Notes under the pieces: model-generated | Database searches by the model: none | The model's input: the letters and a program-made list of their open reading frames with translations, nothing else | Told to the model about the DNA's origin: nothing | NCBI GenBank assembly: GCA_014874455.1 | Contig: JADBJL010000030.1 | Coordinates: 1 to 58,436 of the forward strand | DNA length: 58,436 nt | Direction: 5' to 3' | DNA from: Thermomicrobiaceae bacterium | GTDB taxonomy: Bacteria; Chloroflexota; Chloroflexia; Thermomicrobiales; Thermomicrobiaceae | Part shown: one piece after another, positions 1,668-14,876 of the stretch | How the letters are laid out: the number at the start of each line of letters is the position of its first letter | Position numbering within the stretch: position 1 is the stretch's first letter | Position numbers and translations under genes: made by a program

Positions 1668-2780
1668 TCAGTCCGCCACTGCTGCAGCGCGATGAATGTA
1701 GTGATAGTAAGCTGCACAGGCCCCTTCGCTTGAGACCATCAGCGCGCCGATCGGGTGCTCGGGCGTGCACTCCCGTCCGAAGAGCTTGCACTGGTGGGGC
1801 TTCAGCACGCCCTTGAGCACCTCGCCGCACTGGGCCGCCTTGGGGTCGGTGACGCGCACGCCCGGTATCTCGAACCGCCGCTCGGCGTCCCACTCGGCGT
1901 ACGCTTCCGAGATCTTCAGCGCCGACTGCGAGATGAAGCCGAGACCGCGCCACTCGAAGTATGGTCGCAGCTCGAAGACGTCGGCCATGGCTTTTAGTGC
2001 CGCCCGGTTGCCGTCCCAGGGCACCACCCGGCTGTACTGGTTTTCCACCTCGGCCCGCCCCTCGGCCAGTTGGCGCAGGATCATCACCATCGACTGGAGC
2101 AGGTCGACCGGCTCGAAGCCGGAGATCACGATCGGCTTACGATAGTTGCGGGCGATGAACAGATATGGCCGGCAGCCGATCACCGTCGAGACGTGGCCGG
2201 GGCCGATGAACGCGTCCAGTCGCATGTCGGGCGAGTCGAGGATCGCCCGGATGGCCGGGACGATCAGCACGTGGTTGCAGAAGACGGAGAAGTTCCGGAT
2301 CCCCAGCGCCTTCGCCCGCATGATCGTCAGCGCCGTGGAGGGGGCGGTCGTCTCGAAACCGATGGCGAAGAAGACCACGTGCCGATCCGGGTTCTCCTGG
2401 GCGAGCTTGAGCGCGTCGAGCGGCGAGTAGACCATGCGGACGTCGGCGCCGCGCGCCTTGTACTCGATGGGGCTGCCGTGGGTACCCGGCACGCGCATCA
2501 TGTCGCCGAAGGCCGTGAAGATCACGTCCGGATACTGGGTGAGCGAGAGCCCGTCGTCAACCCGGCCCATCGGCAGGACGCAGACCGGGCAGCCAGGCCC
2601 GTGGATCAGGTCGATGTTCTCCGGCAGCAGGCTCTTGATGCCGTGCCGGTAGATGGCGTGGGTGTGCCCGCCGCAGACCTCCATAACCCGGTAATGGCGC
2701 CCCGGGTCGGCCAGCCGGGCGATCTCGTCGGCCAGCGCCCGGATCAACTTCGGATCTCGAAACTCGTCGACGTACCTCAC
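1668..2780 (-). CDS. hypD: Hydrogenase maturation protein HypD
   Basis: HypD is the 4Fe-4S scaffold that, with HypC, carries the Fe(CN)2CO group during hydrogenase assembly. The 370-residue protein has all family hallmarks: VMEVCGGHTHAIYRHG at about residues 33-48, GPGCPVCVLPMG around 65-76, a central FFAIGFETTAPSTA segment, and C-terminal cysteines in AAQCGEVLKG and CKLFGRECTPEHPIGA that bind the cluster. It overlaps the upstream atypical hypC by 4 bp (ATGA), so the two are translationally coupled. Nothing in it is unusual. Confidence 0.97.
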   Translation of the reverse strand: MRYVDEFRDPKLIRALADEIARLADPGRHYRVMEVCGGHTHAIYRHGIKSLLPENIDLIHGPGCPVCVLPMGRVDDGLSLTQYPDVIFTAFGDMMRVPGTHGSPIEYKARGADVRMVYSPLDALKLAQENPDRHVVFFAIGFETTAPSTALTIMRAKALGIRNFSVFCNHVLIVPAIRAILDSPDMRLDAFIGPGHVSTVIGCRPYLFIARNYRKPIVISGFEPVDLLQSMVMILRQLAEGRAEVENQYSRVVPWDGNRAALKAMADVFELRPYFEWRGLGFISQSALKISEAYAEWDAERRFEIPGVRVTDPKAAQCGEVLKGVLKPHQCKLFGRECTPEHPIGALMVSSEGACAAYYHYIHRAAAVAD

Positions 2781-3312: not shown

Positions 3313-3882
3313 TCACTCGATGCCGTCCGCGTCCCCGCCTCCCACTCGGACGGGAGAAGTGGCTAGGCAAGATAGCTGCTCGCGCTCGAGCAGCTCCTCG
3401 ACGAGCCGGCGGACACGATCCACGGCCAGCTCGACCGCCTGCGCGACGCGCTCGGTGAGGCCGACCCCCATCTCCTCCACCTCGGCAGGCTCGCAGCCGA
3501 GTAGCCTGACGAAGGGCGGTAGGACTCCGAGTGCCCGCGCCAGCACGAAGACCTTCGACGGTTGAGTATAGTGCGTATCGGCCAGAAACGCGCGTCGCTC
3601 AGCATCAGTCCACTCGCGCAGGTCGTCGACCTCTGGCTCGAGCAGATAGAGCGTGCCCGGCTCCCTGCCGCATCGAACCGCGTCGATCACGATCAGCGCG
3701 TCATGGCCGTCCAGCAGCTCCTGCACCACGGCGATGCCACCGGTGCCGGCATCCAGCAGCGTGACACCTGGTGGGAGCGGCCGCCACTCGGCCATAAGTC
3801 GCTGAACGACCGCAACCCCGAAGCCGTCATCCTGCCGAAGCACCGATCCCATCCCGGCAATCAGCACTCGCCTCGGGCTCAT
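3313..3882 (-). CDS. Hydrogenase maturation protease (HyaD/HupD/HybD family)
   Basis: An endopeptidase that removes the C-terminal tail of the large subunit after nickel insertion. The 189-residue product starts MSPRRVLIAGMGSVLRQDDG. The acidic residue in GSVLRQDDGFG and the Asp of LLDAGTGG correspond to two nickel-sensing ligands of HybD, and His in DTHYTQPSK probably supplies the third. I chose the ATG at 3882 because the fold begins there and it gives a 4-bp ATGA overlap with the NifU-Rieske gene; a longer open frame exists upstream but is low-complexity shadow sequence. The substrate is presumably the HhyL precursor at 5826-7697. Confidence 0.93.
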   Translation of the reverse strand: MSPRRVLIAGMGSVLRQDDGFGVAVVQRLMAEWRPLPPGVTLLDAGTGGIAVVQELLDGHDALIVIDAVRCGREPGTLYLLEPEVDDLREWTDAERRAFLADTHYTQPSKVFVLARALGVLPPFVRLLGCEPAEVEEMGVGLTERVAQAVELAVDRVRRLVEELLEREQLSCLATSPVRVGGGDADGIE

Positions 3883-4784
3883 GCGGGCACCACCTGTCTC
3901 GGGCAGCCGACGATGATCTGGCCATCTCGCACCGCCACCGGTACCACCTCGAGCGACCGGCCAGCGCGATCGAGCCGCCGCCCGCTGTGCAGGTCGAACC
4001 GGCACCCGTGCCATGGGCAGATGATGATGCCCTCCTCCCAGGAAATACCCTGCCCCATGTCGAGCGGCAACGGGGTTCCCGGGCAGGCGTTACGGTAGGC
4101 GTGGATGTCGTCACCGCGCCGGACCAGTACCATGGAAAGGTCGCCAGCGTCGATCCGCACCACCCCGACCTCGGGCAACGCGTCCAGCGATGCCACCACC
4201 TGCCACTCGAGGCCCGGGTGACTAGCCTTATGGACCGGCAACGGTACGAGTCGACGCCCCGGTGGTGCCGGGCGCGGGGCAGGAGAAGCCGGCTCGACCT
4301 CGAGCCGCTCGAACTCCGGCATGCCCTCGCGGAGCGCCGTCTCCACCACGTGCCGGAGCGTCTGGCTAGAGGCGGGGCAGCCCGAGCATGTCCCGCCGAG
4401 CTGGACGCGCACCACGCCCTCCTGGACGCTGAGCACCCGCAGCTCGCCCCCGTGCGAGACGATGTATGGCTGCACCTCCGACAGGATACGGTCGACTCGA
4501 GCGCGCTGTCCGGCCTCGTCGAGCTCGTAGAGCTCCAACAGCAGGCTGACAGCGGGGTCATCCAGCATCTCCCGGAACGCCTGCGGGGCTGCCCGCTGGA
4601 AGCGCTGCACCAGCCGTCCGATGCCCACACGGTGGAGCAGGTCAATCAGTCGCAGGAGTCGCAGCGCCTGATCGCGCAGCACCGGATCAGGCGCCGACTC
4701 GAAGCCCTGGACGAGCGCGTCGATCTCGGTGAGCGCCTGCTGGAGTCGCCTCACGGTTGCCTCGTCTCGTGGCTCGGCGGCCAT
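3879..4784 (-). CDS. NifU-like / Rieske-like two-domain protein (HhyE/HucE type)
   Basis: This 301-residue protein has three parts: an alpha-helical N-terminus (1-95), a NifU C-terminal-type domain with GGTCSGCPASSQTLRH (Cys133, Cys136), and a Rieske-like domain (about 190-295) with NACPGTPLPLD and ICPWHGCRFDLHSG. A normal Rieske site is C-x-H ... C-x-x-H. Here the first half is Cys234-Pro-Gly, so one histidine ligand is missing, while Cys256-x-x-His259 is kept. Mycobacterial high-affinity hydrogenase operons carry comparable proteins (HucE/HhyE), proposed to relay electrons from the hydrogenase (recalled, not checked). A role as electron carrier or Fe-S donor for HhySL is therefore likely but inferred. 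Confidence 0.88.
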   Translation of the reverse strand: MAAEPRDEATVRRLQQALTEIDALVQGFESAPDPVLRDQALRLLRLIDLLHRVGIGRLVQRFQRAAPQAFREMLDDPAVSLLLELYELDEAGQRARVDRILSEVQPYIVSHGGELRVLSVQEGVVRVQLGGTCSGCPASSQTLRHVVETALREGMPEFERLEVEPASPAPRPAPPGRRLVPLPVHKASHPGLEWQVVASLDALPEVGVVRIDAGDLSMVLVRRGDDIHAYRNACPGTPLPLDMGQGISWEEGIIICPWHGCRFDLHSGRRLDRAGRSLEVVPVAVRDGQIIVGCPRQVVPA

Positions 4785-5825: not shown

Positions 5826-7697
5826 TTATTCCTCCAGGATGCAGGCGCAGGTATTCACCTCGCGCACCACCACCCGCTCGCCCGCGAAGACATGCGTGGT
5901 GCAGGGCATGCAGGGGTCGAAACTCCGGATCGTGCGCAGGATGTCGATAGCCTTGAAGTCCTCCGGGCTGTTGAACTGCTCGATGATCGGCGTGTTCAGC
6001 ACCGCCTCCTCGTATGGCCCCGGGTTCCCCCACGGGTCGCGCGGTGAGGCGTTGATCGTCGAGGGGGTGATGATCTGGTAGTTGGTGAGCACCCCGCCGT
6101 CCATGGTCAGGTGATGGGTCAGGTAGCCGCGGCCGGCGCCCCAGAACCCGACGCCGATCCGGAAGTCGCGCGGCACGGTGAAGTCGCGGCTCACCGCCGT
6201 GTTGCCCTGCTTCATGAGCTCGTAGCCGCTGAGCAGGTTGTTGAGGGCGACCAGAGCCGTGTACGCTTCGGCGTACGCCCGCGCGCGGTTGCGCTCGATC
6301 GCGTTCCAGTCGCTCGGGATCCGCCACTCGAGGGTCATCTCGGGCAGGCGTCCCTTGGGCACCAGCATGCGCAGGCTCTCGCCGGTGGACTCGATAAACG
6401 GATTCTGCGGGATCTTCCTGGCCGCTGCCGTGGTCCACATCCGCACGTAGACGCCGGCCTCCATGACCGAGCGGTCCCAGCGCGGCGTGCTGTCCCAGGT
6501 GTACTTCTCCTTCCAGCTTCGACCGGTCGGCTTGGGGCGGGTCTGCTTGTTCCACGGATGGTACGGGCTTAGCGGGTTACCGACCGGGTCGGTCTTGATC
6601 GGGTAGTCGTCCCAGGCCTCGTAGTAGGAGTGCTCGACGAACTCCTCCAGACCAGCGTTGAGCAGGTGGAGGTTGGTCGTGACCAGCTCGCCGTCGCGGA
6701 CGACTCCCGGCGTGTTCCACCGGCGCTCGCCCCAGCGGTCGGCGTGCCGGTAGTCGGCGTCGTACGCTTCGTGGTGGTCCCAGATCCCCGCGTCGATCAG
6801 GTTCTTCGGGCGCGCGCCGACCTGGCGGAAGCGTGGCTCGACCTCGTAGAGGAAGTCGAAGACGTCATCCCAGAGCAGCGCCATCTTCTTGGAGTAGTCG
6901 AGCAGGTCGAACAGCCGCACCTGGTAGTCGTTGAACACCTTCATCGAGATCGTCGTGCTGATCCCGCCGGGCACGATCGTCTGCGGGTGGGGATACTTGC
7001 CCCAGACCAGCACCGTCATCTCGCGCGCCTTGCGCGTCATCTCCAGCGCCTCGAGGTAGAGCGAGCCAGTCAGCGGGTTCAGTGCCGTCATGATCTCGCC
7101 GATGGTCTTGAACCCGTGGACACCGGCATTCCGAGCCGGCGCGGTCTGGGCGCGCTCCCAGATCTCCGGGTTCGTCGCCCGGATCACGGCCTCGGAGTAG
7201 TCCGGGCCAGCCAGCAGGAAGAGGTGCAACGGATGGTCGTAAAGGAACTCGGCCGTCTGCCCGAGGTTGCGCACGATGATCCCCATCGGGGGTGGCGGCG
7301 TGCCGAAGGCCATCTCGATCGCCTCAGCCGAGCAGTTCGCGTGGACGCCCCCGCAGACGCCGCAGGCGCGGCTGCTGATGAAGATCGCGTCGCGCGGATC
7401 GCGCCCCTTCAGGATCACCTCGTAGCCGCGGAACAGTGTCGCCATCGAGTGCGCGTCGAGAACCTGGCGGTTCTCCAGATCGACTACTGCGTGGAAAGCG
7501 AGTGCCCCCGCGACGCGGGTGACCGGGTCGATGCTCACCTCCTGGATGTGACCGTTGCGGCGCAGGAGTTCCTCGATTCGCTCCTGCTGGGTCGCCACGG
7601 CCGTAGTCGAGGTGTAGGCGTAGGGGTCGCGGACATCGCCCCGCAGGCGGGCCCTGCCTGACTCGTCGAACTCGATCGGCAGGTTCTTGAAGCACAT
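5826..7697 (-). CDS. hhyL: NiFe hydrogenase large subunit, group 1h type
   Basis: The catalytic subunit of an uptake hydrogenase. The 623-residue protein has the L1 motif SRACGVCGGVHANC (Cys112, Cys115) and the L2 motif DPCMPCTTH (Cys596, Cys599, His602) that hold the nickel-iron site. It also has a 21-residue C-terminal tail after His602, which the maturation protease should remove. The long insert between about 330 and 430, rich in Trp and Tyr, and its pairing with a small subunit without a Tat signal fit group 1h (actinobacterial-type, high-affinity, oxygen-tolerant) enzymes known from Thermomicrobium and mycobacteria. The L2 cysteines are encoded as Cys, so this is not a NiFeSe enzyme. 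RBS GAGGAGGCT lies upstream of ATG 7697. Confidence 0.97.
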   Translation of the reverse strand: MCFKNLPIEFDESGRARLRGDVRDPYAYTSTTAVATQQERIEELLRRNGHIQEVSIDPVTRVAGALAFHAVVDLENRQVLDAHSMATLFRGYEVILKGRDPRDAIFISSRACGVCGGVHANCSAEAIEMAFGTPPPPMGIIVRNLGQTAEFLYDHPLHLFLLAGPDYSEAVIRATNPEIWERAQTAPARNAGVHGFKTIGEIMTALNPLTGSLYLEALEMTRKAREMTVLVWGKYPHPQTIVPGGISTTISMKVFNDYQVRLFDLLDYSKKMALLWDDVFDFLYEVEPRFRQVGARPKNLIDAGIWDHHEAYDADYRHADRWGERRWNTPGVVRDGELVTTNLHLLNAGLEEFVEHSYYEAWDDYPIKTDPVGNPLSPYHPWNKQTRPKPTGRSWKEKYTWDSTPRWDRSVMEAGVYVRMWTTAAARKIPQNPFIESTGESLRMLVPKGRLPEMTLEWRIPSDWNAIERNRARAYAEAYTALVALNNLLSGYELMKQGNTAVSRDFTVPRDFRIGVGFWGAGRGYLTHHLTMDGGVLTNYQIITPSTINASPRDPWGNPGPYEEAVLNTPIIEQFNSPEDFKAIDILRTIRSFDPCMPCTTHVFAGERVVVREVNTCACILEE

Positions 7698-8948: not shown

Positions 8949-10175
8949 CTACTCGGGCTTCGCTGACGAGCCACGCCAGCGAAGCCGGTCGTAGAAGAAC
9001 TCCACGAAGCGCTCGACGGTCGGCACGTCGTACTCGGCTCCCCAGCCACTGGGGATCGCGTGCTCTCGATCCCAGCGCGTCTCCCGGTTGCGGTCACGCT
9101 GGGTAATGCGGCGCAGCGGGCGGATGAACGAACCGTTGAGCCGTGAGACTGTGCTGGAGAGGGCCGACCCTGGCGGGGTCTTGTAGAACGGCGAGAACTT
9201 GTCGGGGAAGCCGGGCATCGTGCAGCCGATGCAGGGCCCCCCGACGTTCATGCAGCCACCCAGGCCGTTGATGGCCCCACGACCGGTAATGTTGCAGTTG
9301 ACGACCGGCCCCCAGCAGCCGATCTCGACCAGGCACTCCCGGTCGCCGTAGTGCTCGGCGAAGACGCCTTCCTCGTAGTAACCAGCCCGGGTGCACTGCC
9401 GGTGCACGGTCTCGCCGAAGAGCCAGGCTGGACGGCCCAGCTCGTCGAACTCCGGCACCGGGCCGAGCCCTTGCAGGAAGAGGAGCACCGCGGCCACGGT
9501 CTCGGTGAAGTTGTCGCCCACTGGTGCGCAGCCGGGGATGTTGACTACCGGCAGGCCGAGCGCGCTGCGGTAATCGCGGCCCAGGAAGTCCATGACACTC
9601 ATCGCCCCCGTGGTATTGTGGTAGGCCGACGGGATACCGCCCCAAGCCGCGCAGGTGCCGATCGCGATGACAGCGGCCGCGCCGGGTGCCAGGCGCTTCA
9701 GCCAGACCGAGGAAGGTACTTGCTTGTACTCGCCGCGCCGCTCGTCGAACTCCTCGCCGACGGCCGACCAGTACCCTTCGCCGGCCCGCGTCTCGTCCGG
9801 CACCGAGCCTTCGTAGACGATCACGTAGGGGGCGCCGAGCGTGCCCTCGAGCGCCCGCTGCATCGGCTCGACGTAGGGGTCACCGGACTCCACGTTCACC
9901 GCCGAGTGGTGCAGCAAGATTTGCGGTAAGCCGGGCAACGACCCCATAAGGAGATCCTCGACCCGCGGGGCCACCGCGCCCAGCACCGAGATGGTGCAGC
10001 CGTCGCAGCTCATCCCGGCAAGCCAGAACACGTGGATGTGGGTATACGGGCCGAGCAGGCTGTCGCGCCCCAGTTGTTCCCGGGCGAGGCGCTGGATCTC
10101 CTCGGTCGTCGCCCCGGCGACGTTGCCGACCATGCCGAGCTTCGGACGCACCCTAGGCTTCGCTTCGACGACCAT
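8949..10175 (-). CDS. hhyS: NiFe hydrogenase small subunit, group 1h type
   Basis: The electron-transfer subunit of the hydrogenase, 408 residues. It lacks a twin-arginine signal, so the enzyme is probably cytoplasmic-side, as for other 1h enzymes. Proximal-cluster ligands are visible in WLAGMSCDGCTIS (Cys57, Cys60), IGTCAAWGG (Cys175) and IPGCAPVGDNF (Cys216). The distal and medial cluster ligands include His258, Cys261, Cys281, Cys287, Cys308, Cys315 and Cys318, in FGETVHRQC, ECLVEIGCWGP and GGCMNVGGPCIGC. The gene overlaps the end of the CooC-like gene by 23 bp. A positively charged C-terminal extension (RPLRRITQRDRNRETRWDRE) is typical of the long 1h form. Confidence 0.96.
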   Translation of the reverse strand: MVVEAKPRVRPKLGMVGNVAGATTEEIQRLAREQLGRDSLLGPYTHIHVFWLAGMSCDGCTISVLGAVAPRVEDLLMGSLPGLPQILLHHSAVNVESGDPYVEPMQRALEGTLGAPYVIVYEGSVPDETRAGEGYWSAVGEEFDERRGEYKQVPSSVWLKRLAPGAAAVIAIGTCAAWGGIPSAYHNTTGAMSVMDFLGRDYRSALGLPVVNIPGCAPVGDNFTETVAAVLLFLQGLGPVPEFDELGRPAWLFGETVHRQCTRAGYYEEGVFAEHYGDRECLVEIGCWGPVVNCNITGRGAINGLGGCMNVGGPCIGCTMPGFPDKFSPFYKTPPGSALSSTVSRLNGSFIRPLRRITQRDRNRETRWDREHAIPSGWGAEYDVPTVERFVEFFYDRLRWRGSSAKPE

Positions 10176-10980
10176 GGTAGGTCTCCTTCTCCAGCAAGGC
10201 CCTGCCGTTCTCGAGGATGCGGTCGGTGAGTTCTGCGATCGCCAGCACCGCCGGAGCGGTCGGCATGTAGTCGATCAGCGCGCGGCCGAGCCGGTCGGCC
10301 TCCTGCACTGCTTCGTCGAACGGGATCGAGCCGATCACGTCGACACTGAGGCGCTCGCAATAGTCGCGGATCGCAGCGTCGTCCTCGGTGGATCGCACCT
10401 TGTTGGCGACGACGAAGGTGTGCAAGATGCCGAGTTCGCGGGCGAGGGGCACGATCCGGCCGAGCGTCTCGAGTGCCCGGAAGTACGGCTCAGCCACGAC
10501 AAGCAGTGTGTCGACATGACGCACGGTTCCCCGGCTCAGGTGCTCGATCGAGGCTTCCATATCGAGGATGGTGACGTCCTCGGGCCGGAGCGTGCCGAGC
10601 TCAGCCACCACGCCGCGCACGGCGGCATGCTGCCCGCAGAGTCAGCCCCGCCCGGCACCGAGCAGGCCGGTCATCGCCAGGACGCGCACGCCGTCGGGGC
10701 CGACCACGCCGTAGCGCGCGATGATCTCCTCGAAGGGACGGATCAGATGGAGCGAGGCGTGGCCATCGCCGTCGACCCGCTCCTCCAGGATCTCTTCGCG
10801 CGGTACCCGCCTGAGTTGCTCGATCAGTTCCGTCGATAACCCCAGCGCCCGCGCCAGGTTGGGGTTCGGGTCGTCGTCCAAGGCATTGACCGCGTGCCCG
10901 CGCTGCGCGGCGAGCCGGGCCATAGTCGCGGCGAGCGTCGTCTTTCCAGCTCCGCCTTTCCCTGCAACTGCAAGCCTCAT
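10153..10980 (-). CDS. CooC-type nickel-chaperone ATPase with in-frame UGA (probable selenoprotein)
   Basis: Read through one UGA (10642-10644), this is a 275-residue MinD/ParA-fold ATPase. It begins MRLAVAGKGGAGKTTLAATM with a deviant Walker A, then DDDPNPNLARALG, and has the CooC signature DMEASIEHLSRG and VVANKV. The two halves lie in the same frame with seven sense codons between the UGA and the next Met. The UGA is codon 113 in GAGRG-UGA-LCGQHAAVR, and CooC proteins carry a metal-binding C-x-C at this site, so selenocysteine replaces the first Cys. A SECIS-like hairpin follows at +13 to +33. As first gene of the hydrogenase operon, it probably handles nickel for HhyL in place of, or beside, HypB. 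The alternative is a nonsense-broken gene. Confidence 0.8.
10609..10629 (-). promoter_or_regulatory. SECIS-like hairpin downstream of the cooC UGA
   Basis: On the minus strand, 12 nt after the UGA, CATGCCGC pairs with GCGGCGTG (8 bp, one G-U) around the 5-nt loop CGTGC. The apical loop starts 21 nt after the UGA and its second base is G. Both traits fit the bacterial SECIS model (loop about 16-37 nt after UGA, G among the first two loop bases). The DNA is GC-rich, so hairpins are common; the support comes from position and from similar hairpins at two other in-frame UGA codons. Confidence 0.55.
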
Positions 10981-11366: not shown

Positions 11367-11684
11367 ATGACGATGTCAACGCCCGGTAACAGTCAGACAT
11401 TCGCTGAGAAGCTCAGGCAGCAGCGGCGACGCCGGGGCTGGACTCAAGCCGAGCTCGCCGGGCGCTTGCAGGTACGCCAGTCGGCGATTTCCCATTGGGA
11501 GAGCGGTCGTGAGCGGCCAACACTCGAGCACTTGCTCATCTTGCTCGCCCTCTTCCCCGATCTCCTCCCGACGCTCACGGTCGACGAGCGCCGCCAGCTC
11601 TTCGGCTTGACCCGCGTCCAGCGAGCTCTGGCGACGGAATGCCCGTGCTCAGGCTGCCAGTGCGGCGTGGGCACTGCCGCATGA
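11367..11684 (+). CDS. XRE-family transcriptional regulator with Cys-rich C-terminus
   Basis: A 105-residue protein with a classic Cro/C1 helix-turn-helix at about residues 12-65 (EKLRQQRRRRGWTQAELAGR, then QSAISHWESGRERPTLEHLL). After the DNA-binding domain comes a short helix and a tail CPCSGCQCG (four cysteines at about 94-101), which could bind zinc, nickel, copper or an Fe-S cluster. It is divergent from the hydrogenase operon and has a palindromic candidate operator in its own upstream region. Control of the hydrogenase and/or the selenoprotein-like operon is inferred from the shared operator motif. An alternative start is the second Met, codon 3. Confidence 0.88.
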   Translation: MTMSTPGNSQTFAEKLRQQRRRRGWTQAELAGRLQVRQSAISHWESGRERPTLEHLLILLALFPDLLPTLTVDERRQLFGLTRVQRALATECPCSGCQCGVGTAA

Positions 11685-11772: not shown

Positions 11773-13572
11773 CTAGCCCTCGCTGGAAGCGGCCTCTCCA
11801 GCCGGTGCTCCGTCTTGCTGGCACCAGGCCCACGCTCCCAGCTCACCGTCGAGGAGGATCTCCGAGCCCGGCTCCAACTCCCCGGCGAGCAGGGCACGAG
11901 CAACCGGATCCAGGACTTCGCGGTCGATCAGTCGTCGGAGCGGGCGTGCGCCGAGTTCCGGGTCGTGCCCGGCGCGGGCGAGCGCGCTTCGAGCGGCGGG
12001 AGACAGTCGTACCTTGACGCCCCAGAGGCCGAGCCGCCCGTGCGCGCGGTCGAGCTGGAGATCGACGACCCGCTCCATCGCCTCGAGCGAGAGCGGAGCG
12101 AACAGGACGATGTCGTCAAGGCGGTTGAGCAGCTCGGGGCGGAAGCGCTGACGAGCATGCGCGAGGAAGACCTCCGGCGCCCGTTCGCCGGCTCCGATCG
12201 CCTCCTGGGAACCGGCGTTCGAGGTGAGCACGATCACCGTGTTGTGGAAGTCGACAGTCCGGCCATACCCGTCGGTGAGGCGGCCGTCCTCCAGGATCTG
12301 GAGCAGGAGGTTCAGCACATCAGGATGCGCCTTCTCGGCTTCATCGAAGAGGACGACGGAGAAGGGGCGTCGTAGCACCGGATCGGTCAACTGCCCCGGC
12401 AGCCCGAAGCCGACGTACCCCGGCGGCGCGCCGATCAGGCGGGCGACCGCGTGCCGCTCCATGTATTCGCTCATGTCGATGCGGATCAGCGACTCTTCGT
12501 CGCCGAAGAGAAACTCGGCGAGGGCCCGAGCGAGCTCGGTCTTCCCCACGCCGGTCGGGCCGATGAAGAGGAAGGAGCCGAGTGGGCGGCGTGGATCACC
12601 CAGGCCGGTGCGCGCTCGCCGGAGGGCCCTGGCCACGGCGCGGATCGCCGGTTCCTGGCCAACCACGCGCCTGGCGAGAGTGGCTTCGATCTCCAGCCAG
12701 CGGCGTTCGCCACCGGAGCCGGGGGAGAGCATGTCCAGCCCGCCGAGCGGCAGCCCGGTGTGCAGCGCGACCGCCTCGAGCAACCGGCTCCGCCCTACTT
12801 CCGTTTCACCATCGAGATGCGCGAGTGCCGCCGCCTGATCCAGCAGTTGGACGCCGATGCCGGGCAAGGCGCGCGACCGGATAAAGCGCTGAGCCAGCCA
12901 GATAGCAAGGCGGGGCGCTTCCGGCGCGAACTCGACCTGGTGGTGCGCGCGTAGCCGGGGAAGTTGGGCTCGCACCGCCGCTTCGCAGGACTCCTCGTCC
13001 CACGCCGGCATCTCGACGACCTGCACCAGCATGTCCCAGTTGGGGACGGCCGACGCGAGGCGTGCTGCCTGCTCGGTGGTGAGTGGCAGCGCGATCCCGC
13101 CCCCGTTCAGCAGCGCGCGAAGGGCAACGCTGCCGGAGGTTGCATCGCCATCGCTTTGCACCAGCAGCTCGGCGCCCTCGAGGATGATCACCAGGCGGCC
13201 CCGCCCAGCGGTGATCTCCCGACCGAGCTGCTCTGCGCGCTGCTCCAGCTCGCCACGGTAGCGAGCACCGGAGACGAGGCGGGCCACATCGACCCAGAAG
13301 ACCTGATAGCCGAGGAACTCCGGCGGGGCATCGCGCTGCGCGATAGCCTGGGCCAGCGCTCGCAGCGCGCTACGCTTGCCGGAGCCGGGAGGCCCGACCA
13401 GCGCGACGTTCCCTCCGAGCGTGCTGCGGAGCGCGCTCGCCAGGCGCCTGGTGAGTTCGCCTCGCTGGATCAGAGGCTCCGGCTGATCCAACAGTGCCTT
13501 GGTGAGGTCGTAGCCGTAGCGGGCGAGCTCATTCCAGCGCGCCCAGCCGGGAGCATTCCCCCTGCGCATCAT
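11773..13572 (-). CDS. Clp-like AAA+ ATPase lacking the Clp N-domain
   Basis: A 599-residue two-AAA+ protein of ClpA/ClpC/ClpB type without the N-terminal repeat domain. The first AAA module has GPPGSGKRS but a degenerate Walker B (VIILEGAE rather than DE), so it may bind but not hydrolyse ATP. The second is intact: FIGPTGVGKTELARALAEFL, VVLFDEAEKAHPDV, a sensor region LTSNAGS, and RFRPELLNRLDDIVLF, followed by a Clp D2-small domain (GHDPELGARPLRRLIDREV). It has no obvious ClpP-binding loop that I can identify by eye. It is the last gene of the MerT-like operon, and its ATG directly abuts the stop of the YtkA-like gene. It presumably remodels or extracts proteins of that system. Confidence 0.85.
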   Translation of the reverse strand: MMRRGNAPGWARWNELARYGYDLTKALLDQPEPLIQRGELTRRLASALRSTLGGNVALVGPPGSGKRSALRALAQAIAQRDAPPEFLGYQVFWVDVARLVSGARYRGELEQRAEQLGREITAGRGRLVIILEGAELLVQSDGDATSGSVALRALLNGGGIALPLTTEQAARLASAVPNWDMLVQVVEMPAWDEESCEAAVRAQLPRLRAHHQVEFAPEAPRLAIWLAQRFIRSRALPGIGVQLLDQAAALAHLDGETEVGRSRLLEAVALHTGLPLGGLDMLSPGSGGERRWLEIEATLARRVVGQEPAIRAVARALRRARTGLGDPRRPLGSFLFIGPTGVGKTELARALAEFLFGDEESLIRIDMSEYMERHAVARLIGAPPGYVGFGLPGQLTDPVLRRPFSVVLFDEAEKAHPDVLNLLLQILEDGRLTDGYGRTVDFHNTVIVLTSNAGSQEAIGAGERAPEVFLAHARQRFRPELLNRLDDIVLFAPLSLEAMERVVDLQLDRAHGRLGLWGVKVRLSPAARSALARAGHDPELGARPLRRLIDREVLDPVARALLAGELEPGSEILLDGELGAWAWCQQDGAPAGEAASSEG

Positions 13573-13992
13573 TCACGGGCCTACCTCGAACCGGAATCGT
13601 GCCTCCGAGCCCTCCGGCTTCAGCATCACGGTCGCCGCCCAGTCTCCGGCCATCGGAAACGTGACGACGCCTCTCCACCTCCCTGGGCCCTCGGCTTCCA
13701 AGGGTACCTCCGGACGGCCCATCGGCATCTCAGGCATGTCGACCATGAGATGCGGCTCGACCGCGTTCGTCCCGGCGGGTGCACCCCCGCGCGTCACCGT
13801 CACCACGATGCGCGTCTCGGTGCCAGCCTTCGGCGGGTTGGGGTCGAGCTGCAAGGTGATCTCGTACTCGCCTACACGCTGCGGCGACTCGTCGAACCGC
13901 TCCGCTTCGACCCGGCACGCGCCCAGGGCCAGCACCACGACGGCCAGCAGCACGTGCTCGCCGAGGATCGAGAGGACTCGGTGCGCCCGCAT
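13573..13992 (-). CDS. YtkA/FixH-like lipoprotein with Met-rich motif
   Basis: A 139-residue exported protein: the N-terminus ILGEHVLLAVVVLALGACRV is a lipoprotein signal with Cys26 at the lipobox (LGAC). The mature part is an Ig-like YtkA/FixH domain (YEITLQLDPNPPKAGTETRI, later RWRGVVTFPMAGDWAATVML). It includes the Met-rich segment PHLMVDMPEMPMGRP, which in related proteins can bind soft metals such as copper. It lies 14 bp after the second MerT-like gene and abuts the Clp-like ATPase. A periplasmic or surface metal-binding partner of the two membrane transporters is a plausible role. Confidence 0.85.
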   Translation of the reverse strand: MRAHRVLSILGEHVLLAVVVLALGACRVEAERFDESPQRVGEYEITLQLDPNPPKAGTETRIVVTVTRGGAPAGTNAVEPHLMVDMPEMPMGRPEVPLEAEGPGRWRGVVTFPMAGDWAATVMLKPEGSEARFRFEVGP

Positions 13993-14006: not shown

Positions 14007-14423
14007 TTACGGTCGGAACAGACCCATGTCGACGCCGAAAAGGAACAGCACCGGCATCACGATCTGCATCATCACGAAGTAGGTGAGAGCCGCAGTGAAG
14101 AGGCTCACCTTGAACGCCTGCCTCGTCAACCGCTGCGCGACCGCTTCAGGGAGCCCACTGACCCGCCGCCGCATCAGCAGCCAGGTCACCCCAAGGGTCA
14201 GGACGAGCCCGATCGCGACGAGGATCGGCCGCGTGCCGACCGGTGAGACCTTGTCGAGCGCGAACAGAGCGGCATTCAAGCCGGCTGCCCAGGTGACAAC
14301 TGCCACCAGCCCGACGCTTCAGCAGAGGCTCGCCGCCACACCGCCGGCCACGCCGGCAGCGACAGGGGCCTGCCATTCGGTGGCAGACTCGGAACCAGCC
14401 AATGCGCGAGTGTTCGCTGCCAT
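14007..14423 (-). CDS. MerT-like 3-helix membrane protein with Cys-UGA (probable selenoprotein), second copy
   Basis: Read through UGA 14319-14321, this is a 138-residue protein with three membrane helices at about 22-50, 66-84 and 106-130. The UGA is codon 35 in GVAASLC-UGA-SVGLVAVV, i.e. directly after Cys34 inside helix 1. MerT mercuric transporters carry a Cys-Cys pair in helix 1 that passes Hg(II), so Cys-Sec here matches a Cys-Cys site. The frame upstream of the UGA opens at ATG 14423, 9 bp after the upstream gene. A hairpin with a GGCAGTTGTC core follows the UGA at +12 to +27. If UGA were a true stop, only a 34-residue peptide would be made. Substrate (Hg, Cu or another soft metal) unknown. 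Confidence 0.78.
14292..14307 (-). promoter_or_regulatory. SECIS-like hairpin in second MerT-like gene
   Basis: Minus strand: GGTGGC pairs with GTCACC (6 bp, one G-U) around the loop AGTT. The loop begins 18 nt after the UGA and has G at its second base. The apical part, GGCAGTTGTC, is identical to that of the hairpin in the paralogous gene at the same distance from its UGA, although the flanking codons differ. That is a sign of shared RNA constraint, or of recent common ancestry. Confidence 0.6.
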
Positions 14424-14432
14424 GCGCGCCTC

Positions 14433-14876
14433 CTATCCACCGAGTCGCGGGTACTGGAAGCCGATCAGGTTCAGGATGGCCGACACCACCACCATGTAGA
14501 TCATGTAGCCGGCCAGCGCCCAGGCAGAGAGGCGGAAGAGCGTCCGCCGAAAGACATCGCGGTACTGCGCCGGGGGCAGTTCCTGGCGATATCCCCGGGT
14601 GAGCCAGCGAGCCAGCCCGAGAATGAGCAGGATCGCAAAGAGCGTCGAGAGCAGGGTGATCCCCTGCATGTTGGCCCAGGTGCGCATAAAGGTGACCGCA
14701 CCGACGGCACCGATCAGCGTGGCGACAACTGCCGCTAGCCCCCCACCTCAGCAGACCGCGGCGATGACGCCGCCACCGACGGCGCACGCCTTGCCAGCGG
14801 ACGTGACCCGCGGCTCTTCGAGCGCTTGGGCCTGTGGAGCAGGCATCGGCTGTGCTTGGGCCTGTGGTTCAGCCAT
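14433..14876 (-). CDS. MerT-like 3-helix membrane protein with Cys-UGA (probable selenoprotein), first copy
   Basis: Read through UGA 14748-14750, this is a 147-residue protein. A Gln/Pro-rich cytosolic-looking N-terminus (1-25) is followed by helix 1 (about 30-63) carrying VIAAVC-UGA-GGGLAAVV, with the UGA as codon 43 next to Cys42. Helices at about 70-92 and 113-138 follow. A further Cys31 lies just before helix 1. Size, topology and site of the Cys-UGA pair match the paralogue downstream, 9 bp away. The ATG at 14876 has a strong AAGGAGGGTGG ribosome site and sits about 38 nt from the predicted transcript start. A SECIS-like hairpin follows the UGA. It is most like mercuric transporter MerT by architecture; similarity is too weak by eye for a firm family call. 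Confidence 0.78.
14722..14735 (-). promoter_or_regulatory. SECIS-like hairpin in first MerT-like gene
   Basis: Minus strand: GCGGC pairs with GTCGC (5 bp, one G-U) around the loop AGTT, which starts 18 nt after the UGA and has G as its second base. It shares the GGCAGTTGTC core and exact spacing with the hairpin of the downstream paralogue. Confidence 0.58.

Follow-up and report, generated by a model that had tools for sequence, protein, structure and literature searches.

Two neighbouring genes in the stretch of DNA analysed here (the window, 58,436 nt in full) are each interrupted, within the first hydrophobic helix of their product, by a UGA codon that directly follows a cysteine codon. 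Do these codons end translation, or do they specify selenocysteine (Sec)? An earlier note on this DNA described the genes as paralogous and MerT-like, and suggested Sec. We conclude that the two proteins, termed P1 and P2, are almost certainly selenoproteins made by UGA recoding, and infer that Sec is inserted in vivo. Taken as a whole, the best explanation, and to our minds a probable one, is that they are selenoproteins in which helix 1 carries a metal-moving Cys–Sec pair. The features discussed are collected in Table 1.

P2 lies upstream of P1, and both frames are unbroken once the TGA is read as a residue. Each begins at an ATG (14423 in P1, 14876 in P2) preceded by an AGGAGG-type ribosome site, and each continues far beyond the UGA, which is followed by 103 codons before the TAA of P1 (context SLC-U-SV) and by 104 before the TAG of P2 (AVC-U-GG). 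What the earlier note had read in the letters, namely a Cys-UGA in helix 1 at codons 43 and 35, good starts, and about 100 codons after the UGA, is borne out. P1 and P2 are 28–31% identical, and the term ‘paralogous’ therefore stands. The neighbouring genes for HypD, HypC and the YtkA-like protein end in ordinary UGA; P1, P2 and a third gene, which encodes a CooC-type ATPase (discussed later), end in TAA or TAG. Standard gene calling breaks these last three genes at the UGA, and annotations are therefore likely to show them as fragments.

Table 1. Features of the P1/P2 locus and of the adjoining hydrogenase cluster, in window positions
Feature	Positions	Strand	Remarks
P2, MerT-like membrane protein	14433..14876	(-)	147 aa; Cys42–Sec43 (predicted)
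UGA (predicted Sec), codon 43 of P2	14748..14750	(-)	Also in HRbin28 and G003
SECIS-like hairpin of P2	14721..14736	(-)	5 bp (7 in relatives); loop AGUU at +18; (A)GCGGC-AGUU-GUCGCC
P1, MerT-like membrane protein	14007..14423	(-)	138 aa; Cys34–Sec35 (predicted)
UGA (predicted Sec), codon 35 of P1	14319..14321	(-)	Also in HRbin28
SECIS-like hairpin of P1	14292..14307	(-)	6 bp; loop AGUU at +18; GGUGGC-AGUU-GUCACC
YtkA-like (PF13115) putative lipoprotein	13573..13992	(-)	Same module as P1/P2; E 2.4e-12; order as in HRbin28
ClpB/ClpA-like AAA+ ATPase	11773..13572	(-)	Lacks the Clp N-terminal domain; end of the module
XRE-type regulator	11367..11684	(+)	Between the P1/P2 module and the hydrogenase operon
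CooC-type P-loop ATPase	10153..10980	(-)	Sec113-Leu-Cys (predicted) replaces CooC C-x-C; third selenoprotein of the cluster
UGA (predicted Sec), codon 113 of the CooC-type ATPase	10642..10644	(-)	Conserved in 12 species
SECIS hairpin of the CooC-type gene	10609..10629	(-)	8 bp; loop CGUGC at +21
[NiFe]-hydrogenase small subunit	8949..10175	(-)	
[NiFe]-hydrogenase large subunit	5826..7697	(-)	Cys ligands only
Hydrogenase maturation protease	3313..4014	(-)	
HypD	1668..2780	(-)	

The decisive evidence for Sec in P1 and P2 is conservation in a second genus. The pair occurs in two of 150 relatives, HRbin28 (G008), of another genus, and G003, of the same genus, and is known from only three genomes, one of which has a decayed set of copies. 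HRbin28, an independent assembly, retains both UGAs, and maintains the order P2–P1–YtkA–AAA next to the genes for the CooC-type protein and the small subunit. Purifying selection acts on both sides of the UGA in both genes: against HRbin28, dN/dS is 0.18 upstream and 0.08 downstream in P1, and 0.06 upstream and 0.03 downstream in P2. The sharing of the UGAs and of this selection with HRbin28 excludes sequencing error and nonsense mutation. The decay of both genes in G003 might favour the latter, but with both codons found in another genus, and dN/dS values of 0.03–0.08 past them, the view that they are two nonsense mutations in decaying genes is exceedingly improbable.

The idea that translation stops at the UGA and then starts afresh, to yield two-helix proteins, deserves scarcely more weight. 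Start codons are available for this, a GTG five codons past the UGA in P1 and an ATG 21 codons past it in P2. In P2, however, the stretch between the UGA and that ATG contains no ATG, GTG or TTG, yet its 20 codons have acquired four synonymous changes and no amino-acid change relative to HRbin28, which disfavours re-initiation. The hydrophobic helix spans the UGA, moreover, and the parts upstream are under selection as well.

The hairpins that follow the two UGAs have the form that was claimed for them: the loop, AGUU, begins at +18 with G second, so that a G is found among the first two loop positions after the UGA, a criterion for SECIS elements. The earlier note argued that two UGAs with the same RNA motif suggest Sec; Sec is upheld, but the hairpin alone is poor evidence for it in a window as GC-rich as this, where some SECIS-like hairpin accompanies 21% of all TGA triplets under a loose rule. 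A four-nucleotide loop at exactly +18 on a stem of at least five pairs is found at 1.2% of the window's TGA triplets, and the P1 and P2 hairpins are paralogous copies, not independent trials. Pairing has been kept where the sequences differ: G-U has become G-C in the P1 hairpin of HRbin28, A-C is G-C in the P2 hairpins of HRbin28 and G003, and the P1 and P2 hairpins differ from each other by a U-A versus a C-G pair. This amounts to one compensatory pair among five related sequences, equalled in 49 of 500 shuffles, and is statistically weak. Synonymous change over the hairpins is lower, though not significantly (28% of windows are as low), and Rfam has no match in the window nor in a separate search of 14200-14800.

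The genome is equipped to read UGA as Sec. SelA (535 bits), SelB (352 bits) and SelD exceed their cut-offs, and a tRNA-Sec with anticodon UCA is recovered by both ARAGORN and Rfam; selA, selB, selC and selD, proposed earlier as a check, are thus all encoded. SelB is above the search threshold in 113 of the 150 relatives. The SelD of this genome (G000:C106, L096) itself contains Sec (SCAGUAGK), and makes a useful internal control.

Cysteine homologues, another of the proposed checks, were found by profile searches outside the Thermomicrobiaceae, among further families within the class and the phylum (G077, G037, G133, G144, G299, G387, G334, G205, G188 and others). All those with a readable motif have Cys-Cys at the column where P1 and P2 have Cys-UGA. 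In an alignment of eight rows the C34 and U/C35 columns are invariant, and the Sec profile matches the Cys profile at E 1.2e-9. Together with the SECIS geometry, the Sec machinery and the conservation in relatives, these homologues support the Sec reading of both genes. A candidate from a scan of 400 Chloroflexota genomes, a PF02411 match with a TGA in G257, was rejected; the filtered scan gave no hydrophobic Cys-Cys or Cys-UGA motif for it. A different Cys-Cys membrane protein adjoins merB in this genome (L117 near 8848, minus strand) and in G037 (L118 near 7556, plus strand).

How far are the proteins ‘MerT-like’? The term holds for distant homology, and not for membership of the MerT family. 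Against the MerT model (PF02411), P1 scores 16.0 bits where the cut-off is 32.9, and P2 gives no match at all. Like the MerT of mer operons, with which they share a remote sequence similarity, P1 and P2 have a hydrophobic helix 1 with the vicinal Cys pair, present as Cys–Sec and aligned with Cys-Cys. Their hydrophobic segments fit three transmembrane helices; the AlphaFold model of P1 reaches a pLDDT of only 56.5. They differ from MerT in having Sec as the second Cys, in lacking the Cys of the loop between helices 2 and 3, and in lying outside a mer operon. In a separate alignment of four Cys homologues, all share a loop Cys after helix 2 (C89). The merA and merB genes of this genome are on another contig (C96), and the cell can therefore probably handle mercury.

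As to function, SelB and tRNA-Sec would decode the UGAs owing to the hairpin just downstream, and the products would be membrane proteins with a predicted topology of three helices, the first of which holds the Cys–Sec pair. If MerT is a guide, a soft metal ion handed over on the outer side of the membrane would be bound by these two residues, Sec holding it tighter than a second Cys could, and the proteins would carry it across, presumably from that side. The donor of the ion may be the neighbouring YtkA-like lipoprotein. That protein (13573-13992) has a Met/His-rich stretch, HLMVDMPEMPMG, which is a possible soft-metal site. We give transport or relay of a soft metal, argued from MerT, an even chance of being the true function; the metal would most likely be Hg(II) or Cu(I).

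The same selenoproteins might instead use the Cys–Sec pair as a redox centre, for selenenylsulfide exchange with thioredoxin-like partners or quinones, and this we regard as unlikely, though the strongest of the other readings. Known selenoproteins are mostly redox proteins (PMC13188914), the loop Cys for handing on metal is absent from P1 and P2, and the Cys homologues of G077 and G299 are near thioredoxin-fold genes. Other Cys homologues, however, occur in mer loci: the one in G387 adjoins MerA and a MerP-like HMA protein, and the locus of the one in G037 also holds MerA and MerB. Adjacent cysteines inside a helix are, in addition, the MerT pattern.

A further proposal looks to the neighbourhood. 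P1 and P2 might deliver nickel, or another metal, to the adjacent [NiFe]-hydrogenase, together with the Sec-containing CooC-type ATPase. The P2–P1–YtkA–AAA module is beside the CooC-type and small subunit genes in HRbin28 as well as here, and the fate of the locus in G003 (L091 8121-14914) points the same way. There, the CooC-type gene and those for the hydrogenase subunits are absent, with no match to the CooC-type gene found elsewhere in the genome, while HypD, HypC and the protease remain, the Hyp genes intact. The P1 gene of G003 has CGA in place of UGA, its loop is altered, and there is a deletion after residue 75. The UGA of P2 survives, but a second TGA replaces a Trp codon and the frame shifts close to the end; the AAA gene, too, is broken. 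Loss of the Sec machinery as the cause was rejected, selB being still present in G003. Decay thus accompanies loss of the hydrogenase structural genes, a suggestive observation from a single case. Against delivery of nickel, P1 and P2 are missing from most genomes that have the Sec-containing CooC and the hydrogenase, the opposite-strand XRE gene splits the P1/P2 module from the hydrogenase module, and a Cys–Sec pair is softer than the usual sites of nickel import. We consider the proposal doubtful. The AAA+ protein of the module (11773-13572) has a counterpart with 85% identity in HRbin28 only, and a remnant in G003.

The hydrogenase itself would belong to group 1h, an assignment made by analogy with Thermomicrobium roseum (PMC6776052). 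The main text of that 2019 study of group 1h hydrogenase operons mentions neither selenium nor CooC.

The CooC-type ATPase is of interest in its own right. Its best solved relative is CooC1 (3KJE, E 7.8e-31), which it resembles in being a P-loop ATPase and in its metal motif, U-x-C aligning with the C-x-C that marks CooC proteins; it differs in having Sec for the first Cys and in occurring in [NiFe]-hydrogenase clusters. The UGA is at the first position of the C-x-C in 12 Chloroflexota species. In its SECIS three pairs have changed on both sides, and the covariation observed was reached in none of 500 shuffles. Cys forms of the protein exist, and the one in G056 is nested among Sec forms; SelB was found in none of four sampled genomes of its genus (g12), two of which are only 72% complete. 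SelB gave no match in two of the 12 Sec genomes, G002, which is only 81% complete, and G017, only 70% complete. In G067 a second CooC-like copy (L081 11824-12573) has two UGAs, giving U-P-U at the metal site. The family is absent from a 2026 table of 119 selenoprotein families (PMC13188914), the NCBIfam selenoprotein models do not match it, and it looks like an unlisted selenoprotein family. Sec in a CooC-type metal site across a dozen species of Chloroflexota would tie selenium to hydrogenase maturation.

Joining the two halves of the cluster gives a speculative scheme, to which we attach a low probability: a Sec-dependent metal-supply module in which the Cys–Sec relay of P1 and P2 and the U-x-C ATPase together serve maturation of the [NiFe]-hydrogenase. 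If it were true, the role of the relay and the Sec-containing CooC family would both be new. The preferred reading of P1 and P2, a metal-moving Cys–Sec pair, has a wider bearing. Most of what is known of selenocysteine comes from redox catalysis, and two tandem paralogues with such a pair inside a membrane helix would put selenium to work in metal binding and transport.

Whether Sec forms of MerT had been reported before was left in doubt by the earlier note, and they are on record. A Sec-containing putative mercuric transport protein (ABB16073.1, PF02411, motif C/SxxU) is given in Table 1 of PMC13188914, which credits it to Zhang and Gladyshev 2007, and NCBIfam has a model, NF045683, for a ‘MerT/CopZ fusion-like heavy metal transport selenoprotein’; Sec-containing MerT is therefore a known kind. 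ABB16073.1, compared by motif only, is like P1 and P2 in being MerT-type with Sec, and the S-L-C-U of P1 fits its listed motif; the A-V-C-U of P2 does not, and both proteins are under the PF02411 cut-off. NF045683 is likewise a MerT-type selenoprotein, and the Cys relatives of P1 and P2 match it weakly, whereas P1 and P2 themselves lack the CopZ domain and give no match to it at E<=1. Compared with these, what is new in P1 and P2 is the missing loop Cys, the stand-alone tandem pair, and the location beside a hydrogenase cluster.
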